From a virus: DNA of 28,976 bases. The notes beneath the pieces were generated by a model. The model worked only from the letters and a program-made list of their open reading frames with translations. It was not told where the DNA came from and did not search any database. The position numbers and the translations under genes were made by a program. Location of the stretch: positions 1 through 28,976 of the IMG/VR virus record IMGVR_UViG_3300032675_000104. One strand, 5' to 3'. Below are positions 328-10,144 of this stretch, piece after piece (positions within the stretch are counted from its first letter, which is position 1; the number at the start of each line of letters is the position of its first letter).

Positions 328-1026
328 ATGAGCGTCTACGGCTACATCCGCGTCAGCACGGTCGAGCAGGCCAATGACCGCAGTTCGCTGGACGACCAGC
401 AGCGGCGCATCACCGGCGCGGCCATGATGCGCGGGGAGACCATCACCCGCGTGTTCAGCGATCCGGGGGTCAGCGGGGGGACGCCGATCGGCCGGCGGCC
501 GGGCGGCGCGGAGTTGATGGAGGCCCTCCAGCCGGGCGACACCGTGATCGCGGCGAAGATGGATCGTATTTTCCGCAGCGCCGAGGATGCGCTGGTCACC
601 GCGGGTCGCCTGCAGGAGCGGCAGGTGAAGCTGGTCATCGCCGACATGGGGCCCGACCCGGTGACGGAGAACGGCGCGGCGAAGCTGTTCTTCACCATGC
701 TCGCGGCCTTCGCCGAGTTCGAGCGCAACCGCATCGCCGAGCGCGTCACCGACGGGCGTCGCGCCAAGAGCCGCGCAGGGGGGTTCGTGGGCGGGCTGCC
801 GCCCTACGGCTTCCGCGTGGTCGGCAGTGGTCGCGACGCCAAGCTGGTGAAGGACGAGGGTGAGCAGGAGGCGATCAAGCGCGCCCGCGAGCTTCGCGCC
901 CAGGGCCTGCCGGTCGCCGAGGTGGCCGAGACCCTCGGTGAAGAGGGGTATTTCAGCCGCAACGGCGACGTGTTCATGCCGATGCAGGTCTACCGCATGC
1001 TGCAACCCCGGAAGGAGACCACCTGA
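328..1026 (+). CDS. Small serine recombinase (resolvase/invertase family)
   Basis: Encodes 232 residues. The N-terminal resolvase catalytic domain is clear: YIRVST places the nucleophile at Ser10 with Arg8 beside it, and KMDRIFRS (77-84) supplies the conserved Asp-Arg...Arg active-site cluster at 79, 80 and 83. A charged helix around 126-140 (FAEFERNRIAERV) matches the dimerising E-helix. GGLPPYGFRV (155-164) is the usual start of the C-terminal DNA-binding part, followed by a Hin-like helix-turn-helix at about 194-215. The protein is too short for a large serine integrase. It makes recombinational DNA breaks through a Ser-DNA intermediate; whether it acts as integrase, resolvase or invertase is not shown. 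GGAG lies 6 bases before the ATG, and the stop overlaps the next ATG. Confidence 0.92.
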   Translation: MSVYGYIRVSTVEQANDRSSLDDQQRRITGAAMMRGETITRVFSDPGVSGGTPIGRRPGGAELMEALQPGDTVIAAKMDRIFRSAEDALVTAGRLQERQVKLVIADMGPDPVTENGAAKLFFTMLAAFAEFERNRIAERVTDGRRAKSRAGGFVGGLPPYGFRVVGSGRDAKLVKDEGEQEAIKRARELRAQGLPVAEVAETLGEEGYFSRNGDVFMPMQVYRMLQPRKETT

Positions 1027-1511
1027 TGGCCAACCAGACGATCGAACGGCTGATCGAGAAGCTTCGGGAGAACCCAAACTCGACGAACGCCGATGTGTTC
1101 AACATGGTCGTGAAATTTCTGACCACGCCCAGTATTTTGCTCGAAGATATGGGCCCCTCCCGCGGCAGCATCGGCGAAGCCCTCGAGGAGTTCGGCCGCG
1201 ACCCGACGCTGAAACCGTTCGACCTCGAGGACGTGGTCCGGGGGGCGTGGTTCGGTCAGCGGGAGAAGAACCGGGCGGTCATCCCGATGGACCGCGAGGT
1301 CGTGCTCGACCCGGCTTCCCTCAACCTGCTCGTCGAGAAGGTGATGGAGGTGCCGCGTGTGGCCATGAACGAGGAGGACGTGGTCTTCCTCGCGACGTCG
1401 GCCACGGCCCTTGCGGTCGGGGTCAAGCACCTCACCCACGCCTTGCTGCGTCTGTCGACCCACGTCCCGGCGCGCAAGCCGCGCTCCCGGAAACCCAAGG
1501 AGACCACCTGA
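1026..1511 (+). CDS. Hypothetical protein, 161 aa
   Basis: Not recognised. The product is soluble-looking and rich in predicted helix, with a leucine/glutamate-rich N-terminus, a central acidic segment and a basic Arg/Lys/Pro-rich tail ending KPKETT. A moderately hydrophobic helix near 120-145 (EEDVVFLATSATALAVGVKH) might be buried or membrane-associated. The start is supported by AAGGAG just upstream and by a TGATG overlap with the recombinase gene. The C-terminal codons and stop repeat the 20 bases that end the recombinase gene. It sits between the recombinase and small accessory genes. It could be a small terminase subunit or a regulator, but nothing in the sequence proves either. Confidence 0.75.
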   Translation: MANQTIERLIEKLRENPNSTNADVFNMVVKFLTTPSILLEDMGPSRGSIGEALEEFGRDPTLKPFDLEDVVRGAWFGQREKNRAVIPMDREVVLDPASLNLLVEKVMEVPRVAMNEEDVVFLATSATALAVGVKHLTHALLRLSTHVPARKPRSRKPKETT

Positions 1512-1846
1512 TGGCCCGCACGCGTAGATCCAACGTCGACACCCTCAACCCGCCCAGCGCGCCGGCCCCTGGCGGGTTGACGACGACGCTCGTCCCCGGA
1601 CAGCGGATCACCAGCTACCCGGACGGGGCGACGACGGTGTTCACCCGCGGGGATCGGATCCCCGGCTATGCGGACGGGCGGCCGGTGACCCTCGGCATCG
1701 TCCAGGTCGCCGTGGCGCCGTCGGCGATCCCTGGCTACCACGTCGTCTACGCGGTCACGAACGAGGGCGCCTTGTGGGTGCGGCGGCCGCCGTCGTTCAC
1801 CTGGGAGAAGGTCGAGGCGATCCCGTTGCCGGCGGGAGACGGCTGA
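1511..1846 (+). CDS. Hypothetical protein, 111 aa, with internal repeat
   Basis: The start is ATG 1511, overlapping the preceding stop by one base and preceded by AAGGAG. The open frame continues upstream, but there it only shadows the previous gene. The basic N-terminus (MARTRRS) is followed by a Pro/Ala linker and then two copies of a short motif, GQRITSYPDG (30-39) and GDRIPGYADG (47-56). The C-terminal third (VVYAVTNEGALWVRR) has the look of a beta-strand blade with a Trp/Phe core. No family is recognised. Accessory phage protein, function unknown. Confidence 0.7.
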   Translation: MARTRRSNVDTLNPPSAPAPGGLTTTLVPGQRITSYPDGATTVFTRGDRIPGYADGRPVTLGIVQVAVAPSAIPGYHVVYAVTNEGALWVRRPPSFTWEKVEAIPLPAGDG

Positions 1847-2067
1847 TGCCCGTCGAGCACAAGCCCGTGTTCAGCAGCCACGTCAGCAGCGTCGGGTACG
1901 ACGCTGCGGCGGGCGAGCTGCATGTGGCCTACGTGAACGGCAAGACCGTGGTCTACGAGGGCGTGCCGCCCGGCGTGGCCCGCAGCGTGCAGACCGGGCC
2001 TTCCGTCGGTTCTGCCTTGCACGCGGAGGTCAAGGGGCGTTACAAACACCGGTATCTGGAGGGTTGA
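1846..2067 (+). CDS. KTSC-domain protein, 73 aa
   Basis: Starts at ATG 1846 in a TGATG overlap with the previous gene; a longer upstream reading (from 1774) is antecedent overlap only. The product matches the small KTSC domain as I know it: VSSVGYDAAAGELHVAYVNG, then YEGVPPGVA, then a serine-containing stretch and a terminal RYKHRYLE motif. The domain is common in phages and bacteria, often alone or fused to lysyl-tRNA synthetase-like or replication proteins, and its function is poorly defined; nucleic-acid binding has been proposed. It forms part of the small-gene accessory block. Confidence 0.85.
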   Translation: MPVEHKPVFSSHVSSVGYDAAAGELHVAYVNGKTVVYEGVPPGVARSVQTGPSVGSALHAEVKGRYKHRYLEG

Positions 2068-2068
2068 C

Positions 2069-2239
2069 GTGGTCTTCTACACCCAAGAGCAAGACCTAGC
2101 AGCATACGACCGCCTGCCCGAGCGCGTGCGGAAGCTGCTGCGGGAATCCCGAGTGAATTTTGCGGCCGCCGTGGTGGAAGACCTCTTGCGGCACTGCCCG
2201 GAATCGGAAGTGATCGAGTACCTGAGGACCGTGACATGA
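2069..2239 (+). CDS. Small hypothetical protein, 56 aa (GTG start)
   Basis: A GTG start at 2069 is preceded by GGAGGG (2058-2063) at good spacing and leaves one base between it and the previous stop. The stop overlaps the DUF3310 start (ATGA at 2236). The product is helical and charged, beginning MVFYTQEQDLAAYDRLPE and ending EVIEYLRTVT, with two amphipathic helices and no membrane segment. No family is recognised. The tight coupling on both sides is the main reason to call it. Confidence 0.7.
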   Translation: MVFYTQEQDLAAYDRLPERVRKLLRESRVNFAAAVVEDLLRHCPESEVIEYLRTVT

Positions 2240-2454
2240 CCGGCAAGCACGACCCCGTGAACCACCCGCGGCATTACACCGGCCACCCGTCTGGCGTGGA
2301 ATGCATTGTGGTCACCGAGCACATGAACTTCTGCCTGGGGAACGCCGTGAAGTACATCTGGCGGGCCGGCGAGAAGGGCGACGCGATCGAAGACCTGAAG
2401 AAGGCCCGGTGGTATCTCGACCGCGAGATCGACCAACGGTCGAGGTTGGCATGA
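2236..2454 (+). CDS. DUF3310 family protein (T7 gp1.7-related)
   Basis: 72 residues with the DUF3310 signature: VNHPRHY near the N-terminus, an EC(I/V)V-type helix, then GNAVKYIWRAGEKG and EDLKKARWYLDREI. This family includes the relatives of T7 gp1.7, reported to be a nucleoside monophosphate kinase, and phage genes of this type are often labelled nucleotide kinase. Activity in this short form is not demonstrated. The gene overlaps its upstream neighbour by ATGA and its downstream neighbour by ATGATG. The expected role is adjusting nucleotide pools or early takeover. Confidence 0.88.
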   Translation: MTGKHDPVNHPRHYTGHPSGVECIVVTEHMNFCLGNAVKYIWRAGEKGDAIEDLKKARWYLDREIDQRSRLA

Positions 2455-2762
2455 TGCGCCGCAGGGGCTTCATCGCGGGCATGGCGGCGGCGCTCGTGGC
2501 GCCGGCCATCGTCCGCACGCCCGGGTTGCTGATGCCGGTCAAGCCAATTGTCGCGGAACCTCCCCTCGTGATCGTGGGGCCAAGGCTCTACGCCGAACTC
2601 GCCAAAACCACGGAAAGAGCGTTCGTGTCGAAGCTGTTGGTGGACATGTACTACAGCAACGAAACGCTCCTCACCGTCCTCGGCGCGCGTGTCCGATGCA
2701 ACCCGTACTGCCCGAACGACCACGCCTACTTCCTCAACGATCAGATTCTGGGAACCACATGA
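2451..2762 (+). CDS. Twin-arginine-like signal fused to a mini capsid-like protein, 103 aa
   Basis: The N-terminus RRRGFIAG followed by a hydrophobic alanine-rich run (11-21) looks like a twin-arginine export signal. Residues 46-80 then align without gaps to residues 14-48 of the major capsid protein at 9110: 16 of 35 positions identical, including LY-EL, RAFV and MYY. Residues 87-96 (CPNDHAYFLN) match capsid residues 276-285 (CPKGSAYFIN) at Cys, Pro, Ala, Tyr, Phe and Asn. About 230 capsid residues are missing in between. The start could be ATG 2451 (ATGA overlap) or ATG 2454 (better spaced from GAGG at 2442-2445). The gene lies far from the capsid gene, among accessory genes. Function unknown: a capsid-derived fragment with an exported or membrane-directed N-terminus. 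Confidence 0.75.
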   Translation: MMRRRGFIAGMAAALVAPAIVRTPGLLMPVKPIVAEPPLVIVGPRLYAELAKTTERAFVSKLLVDMYYSNETLLTVLGARVRCNPYCPNDHAYFLNDQILGTT

Positions 2763-3010
2763 CCACCCACGCCGAAGCCGCTATCGCGTTGCGCGCCATC
2801 GCCGACCAGCTTGACGCGGCCAGCGGCACGTTCGGGGGCGTCTTCGTGATCATCCCTCCAGGCGACCAGATGACGCTGGTGGACGGCATCACCACGACGT
2901 CGAACCCGAACCCGGCGGTCTTCTGGTCCGCGGTCGAGGGCCAGGTCGGCCTTGCGATCGCCGAGATGAAAGCCGGTCTGCAGGCGGGTTCGGGGGGCCG
3001 GCGGTGGTGA
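2759..3010 (+). CDS. Hypothetical protein, 83 aa
   Basis: Starts at ATG 2759 in an ATGA overlap with the previous stop. The N-terminal half is an amphipathic helix (EAAIALRAIADQLDAA), followed by a beta-like GGVFVIIPPGDQMTLVDG and a C-terminal helix ending in a glycine/arginine tail. There is no signal peptide or membrane helix. No family is recognised. The downstream GTG gene starts inside its last codons, so the two are probably translated together. Confidence 0.68.
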   Translation: MTTHAEAAIALRAIADQLDAASGTFGGVFVIIPPGDQMTLVDGITTTSNPNPAVFWSAVEGQVGLAIAEMKAGLQAGSGGRRW

Positions 3011-3198
3011 AATGCGCGGCTTGTAACGGCGTGGGCTGGGTCGCGGTCAAGGAGACCCAAGAAGACCGCCAGGAGGCCATCCACGCGGCGAAAATTGCCG
3101 GCAAATGGGACAGGGCCGCGATGCTGTCGAACATCGGGCTGGCGACCAAAATACTCCCGTGCTGGGCTTGCGGCGGCGCCAAGGAGGTGCCGGAATGA
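3004..3198 (+). CDS. Small zinc-knuckle protein (two CxxC motifs), 64 aa
   Basis: A GTG start at 3004 (or GTG 3007) overlaps the previous stop. Two metal-binding pairs are visible: CAACNGVGW at residues 4-12, which is DnaJ-zinc-finger-like CxxCxGxG, and PCWACGGAKEV near the C-terminus. A helical spacer (QEDRQEAIHAAKIAGKWDRA) separates them. The four cysteines probably bind one zinc ion. Small proteins of this kind are common in phage early or packaging-proximal regions and may act as assembly or regulatory adaptors. Its stop overlaps the terminase start by ATGA. Confidence 0.75.
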   Translation: MVKCAACNGVGWVAVKETQEDRQEAIHAAKIAGKWDRAAMLSNIGLATKILPCWACGGAKEVPE

Positions 3199-9109: not shown

Positions 9110-10144
9110 ATGGCGATACCCGGCACAGGTGCTGTTCCGACCGGCGCGCTTTACAACGAACTGACGTCGGTCACCCGTCGTGCGTTCGTGCCGCGCCTGT
9201 TCGTGCAGATGTACTACGCGACCCCGACGTTCTTCTACATGATGGGCAACGCCCAGAAGGTCGCCGGCGGTCTGTCGCAGATCACCATCCCGACCCAGGG
9301 CCAGTCCATGGTTCAGGGTCAGTGGACCGGGTATGGCGGCGGCTTCAACCAGCCCAACATCACGCCCGGCATCCAGAACGCGCAGTGGAACACCTGCTAC
9401 TGGGTCGTTCCGGTGCCCCTGCCCTTCGGCGAAACGGTCATCCAGGCGACCGAGCGCGAGATCTCGCTGCTCAAGGCGCGCATGAACGACGTGTACGCCG
9501 TGAGCGTGCAGAACCTCGCCCCGCTGATGTTCTCGGGCAACAACGGCGCCAACCCGCTGGTCCCGAACGGCTTCGCCGACGGGTTCGACAACGGTCTGAA
9601 CTACCCGACGTACGGCGGCATCAACCGTCTCGCGGCCGGCAACCAGAACTGGAAGGGGCAGTACTACAACCTGTCCGCCGGCAGCGTGGGTTCGTCCGGT
9701 TTCACGCGCCAGACGATGTCGCAGCAGCTCATCCAGATCACGGATGCGGCCGGCGGCGAGGCCCCGACCTTCGGCGTGATGAACCCCGGCGACTTCGCGA
9801 CCCTGAACAACTCGTTTGTGGGCGTCGAGCAGATCTTCGTGCGGCCCGGCCAGGAAGGCACGATGGGCACGCCCGTCCGGTCGTCCTTCCCGAATGTCAA
9901 CGTCGCCGGCGTGCCCATCTTCGCCGACCACTTCTGCCCGAAGGGCTCGGCGTACTTCATCAACACGAAGTACACCGCGTTCTACATGAGCGAGGACGCC
10001 GCGTTCGACTTCTCGGGCTTCTACTCGCTGGTTCCGCTCGGCCAGATCGGCCAGCAGGGTGTGACCATCCTGGGCTACAACATCATCACGTCGAAGCCGT
10101 CGGCCAACGCCGTCGTCACCGGCATCGGCAACGCCGCGTTCTGA
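9110..10144 (+). CDS. Major capsid protein
   Basis: 344 residues. Identified by position after the scaffold, by length, and by the pattern of a podoviral coat protein: a helical N-arm (GALYNELTSVTRRAFVPRL), the GGLSQITIPTQGQSMVQGQW strand region, a long spine-like helix (GETVIQATEREISLLKARMNDVYAV), Asn/Gly-rich loops, and a C-terminal domain with ADHFCPKGSAYFIN and QQGVTILGYNI. The start has AGGAG about 8 bases upstream. Parts of it (residues 14-48 and 276-285) recur in the small protein at 2451. I cannot tell from sequence which exact coat family it belongs to, but the HK97-like fold is expected for tailed phages. Confidence 0.92.
   Translation: MAIPGTGAVPTGALYNELTSVTRRAFVPRLFVQMYYATPTFFYMMGNAQKVAGGLSQITIPTQGQSMVQGQWTGYGGGFNQPNITPGIQNAQWNTCYWVVPVPLPFGETVIQATEREISLLKARMNDVYAVSVQNLAPLMFSGNNGANPLVPNGFADGFDNGLNYPTYGGINRLAAGNQNWKGQYYNLSAGSVGSSGFTRQTMSQQLIQITDAAGGEAPTFGVMNPGDFATLNNSFVGVEQIFVRPGQEGTMGTPVRSSFPNVNVAGVPIFADHFCPKGSAYFINTKYTAFYMSEDAAFDFSGFYSLVPLGQIGQQGVTILGYNIITSKPSANAVVTGIGNAAF

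Follow-up and report, generated by a model that had tools for sequence, protein, structure and literature searches.

The nearest known idea to the proteins described here is that of a capsid fragment acting in trans. The p22 restriction factor of the yeast retrotransposon Ty1 is a fragment of the element's own capsid that is made as a separate product, and it shows that capsid fragments can act in trans on assembly (PMC4599808). We compared it with a gene at 2451..2762 (+ strand) of the IMG/VR virus record IMGVR_UViG_3300032675_000104, which was analysed over its full length of 28,976 bases and is called the window. This gene encodes a 103-aa protein, P0001, almost certainly a member of a class of accessory phage proteins of capsid origin, in which a conserved RR-type signal (an invariant APA, then xMPV) is linked to fragments, sometimes reshuffled, of a major capsid protein (MCP) of the phage's own type. 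Origin in the element's own capsid is a trait shared with p22. In contrast to p22, which is produced from within the capsid gene, P0001 is encoded by a separate, diverged gene about 6.3 kb from the MCP gene. Ty1 p22 also lacks an export signal, a collage structure, and recurrence in unrelated capsids, whereas the phage class has all three.

Other described systems share single features with the class. CapRel-SJ46 exemplifies bacteria that sense phage MCP directly, and such sensing would give a capsid decoy a use, but the excerpted text describes no decoy of this kind (PMC9712102). The tail assembly blocker Tab is phage-encoded and blocks virion assembly of other phages; unlike the present class, it acts on tail assembly from a prophage, with no capsid-derived, signal-bearing make-up described in the excerpt (PMC10884400). 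CpmA and CpmB of SaPI1 are small proteins acting on capsid assembly, but they redirect capsid size and compete with scaffold, and the sections covered do not describe them as capsid pieces or as carrying an export signal (PMC5644958). Tat signal peptides have the RR-x-F/L motif, the hydrophobic stretch, and the APA (A-x-A) site in common with the class, which differs in a conserved [LI]MPV after the site, in sub-cut-off matches to the Pfam and NCBIfam TAT models, and in the capsid pieces attached. A literature search of open-licence PMC papers returned no described system of a signal plus own-capsid fragments, and the class would thus appear to be an undescribed kind of capsid mimic.

A signal and two capsid-like pieces in P0001

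The start codon of the P0001 gene is preceded by GAGG, and its ATG shares four bases (ATGA) with the stop of an upstream DUF3310 gene (2236-2454, +). Residues 1-30 (2451..2540, +) comprise an RR-type export signal, an APA site, and an LMPV motif, and match profile A1, as do about 130 distinct small phage proteins. The N-terminus bears the signal MMRRRGFIAGMAAALVAPAIVR and has a Tat-type layout, with RRxF/L, a hydrophobic stretch, and an A-x-A site near the N-terminus (MMRRRGFIAGMAAALVAPA). The original prediction of an export- or membrane-directed N-terminus is thus borne out at the level of sequence.

We next consider the capsid-like pieces, both of which had been predicted and both of which were recovered. 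Residues 45-79 (2583..2687, +) align with the N-arm of the window's MCP at residues 13-47 (9146..9250, +; originally placed one residue later, at 14-48), with 16 of 35 positions identical and a profile E-value of 1e-8. The alignment scores 82, against a maximum of 45 among 5,000 shuffles, none of which scored as high; the MCP is the best open reading frame (ORF) of the window for this segment, and the next reaches only 29. A database homology search gave this match an E-value of 3.5e-6, and phmmer with the C-terminal part gave 2.7e-7. The short second piece, YCPNDHAYFLN at residues 86-96 (2706..2738, +), aligns with MCP residues 275-285 (FCPKGSAYFIN; 9932..9964, +) with a score of 42, which was reached by 1 of 5,000 shuffles, and once more the MCP ranks first among the window's ORFs. 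Taken alone, this second piece would be marginal; however, relatives repeatedly show collages of two pieces.

P0001 therefore contains just ~35 + 11 of the 344 MCP residues, and complete shell-forming A and P domains are absent. A PHROG search with P0001 alone gave nothing better than an E-value of 0.21, and Pfam, PHROGs, and NCBIfam offered no other family to explain the capsid-like region; a match to another family would have refuted the predicted relationship. The AlphaFold model of P0001 is of low confidence (pLDDT 57).

The MCP itself, P0002 (9110..10144, +), is the source family of the pieces and was assigned to phrog_9953, a major head protein family (E = 9.5e-16). Its AlphaFold model (pLDDT 66, pTM 0.70), in which the spine helix spans residues 115-139, resembles HK97-fold capsids (best Foldseek E-value 1.1e-8). 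At a separate locus (L339, 5052-6119, +), an MCP gene of the window's type is broken by one stop codon into two ORFs of 198 and 157 aa.

Recurrence of the signal and capsid origin of the tails

Apart from the same phage, an initial homology search returned a single distant contig, L004, which encodes two tandem proteins sharing APAI[IV]RTPGLLMPV; the first of them has a tail matching the N-terminal end of that contig's own, unrelated capsid protein. Scanning IMG/VR DNA for the pattern APAI[IV]R-x(3-4)-LMPV yielded 13 and 119 stretches, and profile A1 of the signal identified 135 signal-bearing small ORFs in these loci, 125 of them with distinct tails (~130 after later additions). Across IMG/VR the signal is near-constant (RR..F..G..APAIVR...[LI]MPV; consensus SRR-x-F/L-x-x-G-L...AAPAIVRA-x-S-[LI]MPV-K), with RR, APA, and LMPV invariant in the alignment, whereas the tails, of about 65 aa, are variable and mostly dissimilar to one another. 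Where any curated model matches the class signals, the closest are TAT signals, all below the cut-off: PF10518 and TIGR01409 are among the top sub-threshold matches of several members, and P0001 matches no TAT model. There was no match among INPHARED phages, which is weak evidence of absence since BLAST may filter short low-complexity signal queries. An internal start at the xMPV methionine is not supported, as a Shine-Dalgarno core is found there in 2 of 125 cases, compared with 53 of 125 at the upstream start.

To what extent do the tails derive from capsids? Six MCP profiles match 44 of 130 tails, mostly over 20-90 aa: P22-coat (PF11651) matches 11, GP7 (PF20911) 8, phrog_371 5, PF13252 4, and the two phrog_9953 branches 5 and 11. 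We also used the same contigs to build profiles of 59 gene families and ran these against 48,013 small ORFs, of which 135 bear a signal. Only five profiles matched signal-bearing ORFs, and all five are MCPs. Their matches comprised 26 signal-bearing ORFs and 4 others, two of which are the halves of one split MCP. As controls, pieces of 1,712 other small genes matched profiles in 74 cases, spread over at least 30 families, and none of 460 shuffled tails matched any profile. Random capture of any gene was rejected, because MCP profiles alone of the 59 match signal-bearing ORFs.

The capsid type of the tail follows the phage that carries it. In 26 of the 27 cases with an identifiable MCP, the tail family is that of the contig's own MCP, and the single exception (G029) involves the two branches of phrog_9953; an aim at foreign capsid types is not supported. 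Compared with MCPs of the same family from other phages, the own MCP also comes out ahead more often than expected (mean fractional rank 0.28, p = 0.0002, a value that assumes uniform ranks, with related phages not fully independent). When 18 tails without an MCP-profile match were checked, the own MCP ranked first in several (L088, L113, L121, and L134), though not in most.

The arrangement of the pieces is varied. Slightly more than half of the 44 tails with a match contain the N-arm and several more contain the spine-helix region, and P-domain and C-terminal pieces are also seen; some relatives hold the N-arm alone, the spine-helix region alone, or C-terminal pieces alone. Permuted collages include MCP residues 118-134 followed by 24-80 in L217 (P22-type), 383-420 followed by 118-149 in L088, and 120-142 followed by 12-45 in L352, whose MCP is of the window's type (L354 is similar, though weaker). 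Two tails (L133 and L028) combine part of an MCP with a portal-like YGRSPAMD motif, and two others (L019 and L106) have weak portal matches. The original description of P0001 as a capsid gene with its middle deleted is therefore too simple, given single-region pieces, permuted orders, and the joined portal motif among relatives. Nor is it a one-off relocated gene: the independent occurrences that had been looked for do exist, including in phages with unrelated capsids, and they reveal a recurrent signal-plus-own-capsid-fragment module. Capture of capsid pieces has happened repeatedly, and across unrelated capsid families. Apparently independent fusions have joined one signal to pieces of no fewer than five capsid families that are mutually unrecognisable by sequence, and this speaks for a strong selective use of capsid pieces, so far unrecognised, outside the capsid itself.

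Selection, distribution and possible roles

The signal is under purifying selection, and the tails evolve faster than the signal. In pairwise comparisons, the ratio of nonsynonymous to synonymous substitution rates (dN/dS) is about 0.1-0.3 for the signal; for capsid-type tails, deeper pairs give about 0.28-0.30 and a single shallow pair gives 0.82, in a test limited by short tails and few close pairs. A DNA-level repeat or mobile cassette was rejected as the cause of signal conservation: the protein is kept despite variable third codon positions, and therefore selection acts on the protein. In tails of the window's MCP type, changes fall at 57 of 135 MCP-conserved cells, compared with 35 of 54 at variable columns. 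The difference argues moderately for a constrained tail, although inheritance from the MCP alone would be expected to produce part of this pattern.

The gene is sporadic. A signal gene is clearly present in nine of the 42 contigs with an MCP of the window's type, or in 11 if two weak matches are counted (some contigs are fragments), and most of the nine have an N-arm tail. The signal gene occurs in 4 of 296 genomes of the Bradyrhizobium family, and an exact pattern was found in nine stretches across one genome per species of 84,980 species; hence, the gene is phage-borne and seldom present in chromosomes. Named hosts of carriers are mostly alphaproteobacteria, which are most likely the hosts of the many uncultured carrier phages.

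The roles first proposed, an assembly poison, an envelope mark, or a superinfection factor, are hypothetical. We favour, at a probability of roughly 0.5, a capsid decoy or antagonist that is directed to the membrane and serves in conflict between phages or between phage and host. It would be a recurrently rebuilt module, with one export signal joined to pieces of whichever MCP the phage has. The tail would act as a capsid mimic that binds some factor normally bound by MCP, most often via the N-arm and the spine helix, regions that include the elements on which scaffold docks in HK97-fold capsids, and the signal would bring both mimic and partner to the inner membrane or across it. In SPP1, the scaffold touches the MCP at its N-terminal helix and where the spine helix begins (PMC6813328), and a scaffold contact at the MCP N-terminus is common to P22, T7, and 80alpha (PMC6813328; for the N-arm contact in 80alpha, PMC5644958). 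The SPP1-type contact elements are the MCP parts most often present in tails of the N-arm families, and it is because tails favour these elements that a membrane-directed mimic engaging MCP partners is our first choice. The sporadic occurrence of the gene and its fast-evolving tail suggest conflict rather than core assembly. As for the mode of action, we tentatively place first a trans-dominant interference with head assembly of related co-infecting phages, which is possible rather than probable. Several points weigh against a mimic of this sort. GP7-type phages use mainly C-terminal or middle MCP pieces instead of the N-arm, so a single mechanism of scaffold docking does not account for every case; the source of about two thirds of signal-bearing tails is not recognised; it is not obvious why a capsid mimic in the cytoplasm would need an export signal; and a poison resembling its carrier's own capsid should harm that carrier.

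Nearly as likely as interference with head assembly is a decoy against host capsid-sensing immunity, in which the own-MCP fragment would bind a CapRel-type sensor without triggering it and the signal would carry the pair off to the membrane or into the periplasm. Bacterial immunity is known to be set off by newly made MCP (CapRel-SJ46; PMC9712102), and the own-type tails and the sporadic, fast-evolving gene fit this idea, but no sensor is known in these hosts or turned up in this analysis, the MCP pieces used differ between phages, and the signal's purpose is left unexplained. Nor does PADLOC tie the gene to a defence locus: no model matches P0001, and the best E-value for a relative is 0.03. 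The better conservation of the signal could instead mean that this segment does the work, as a small membrane-active protein, and that the tail is filler taken up from the highly expressed MCP gene by illegitimate recombination. The many tails of unrecognised source and the 57 of 135 altered cells at MCP-conserved columns would agree with filler. We nonetheless regard it as doubtful: an exclusive match to MCPs among 59 families is not expected from random capture, the deeper tail comparisons give a dN/dS of about 0.3, and MCP-conserved columns are less altered than variable ones. A signal-anchored fragment that docks scaffold, MCP, or portal at the inner membrane and so nucleates the phage's own heads would account for the own-MCP specificity, for the N-arm and spine helix as scaffold contacts, and for the portal motif in some tails. 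Such an assembly aid is unlikely, however, as the tail evolves fast and only 9 of 42 same-MCP contigs, some of them fragments, carry the gene, which is thus probably dispensable for assembly. Chance similarity or a common motif without capsid descent would suit the shortness of every match (mostly 20-90 aa), but it is refuted by the shuffle controls (0/460 and 0/5,000), the restriction of matches to MCP families, and the 26 of 27 own-family agreement, and we give it almost no credence.

The class provides a defined, testable set of proteins for head-assembly interference or evasion of capsid sensing by phages, and for the part played by the cell envelope. It also illustrates that core virion genes can supply the pieces of a collage in a small, unannotated phage ORF.

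Neighbouring genes and other signal-bearing loci

The P0001 gene is housed in an accessory region of the window (328-3198, +), left of a terminase-like ORF. Along with the DUF3310 gene, this region contains a serine recombinase (328-1026, +), a KTSC domain (within 1774-2067, +), a DUF6525-like gene (2069-2239, +), and a gene for a small CxxC protein (3004-3198, +).

Elsewhere, L072 (3938-5191, -) has three tandem capsid-derived small ORFs of the P22-coat type, corresponding to MCP residues 268-342 (no signal), 119-149 (variant signal AAPAVLR..), and 27-80 (signal); the MCP was not found on the 35-kb contig (G041) that bears this run. Other tails are of a different nature. Chromosomal or prophage members from Bradyrhizobium and Rhizobium (L346, L347, L348, and L258; 449-985, +) share a tail that is not recognised as capsid and that ends in ..G[FW]LPPYI[CS]IYR in three of the four. 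Two signal proteins (L017, 9512-10105, + and L018, 7492-7818, +) have tails like a phage tail-collar domain instead of a capsid. Two more (L065, 4594-4896, - and L116, 444-731, +) have a common Cys-rich tail, GVPRC..C...GMCAHTGG, which is possibly metal-binding.
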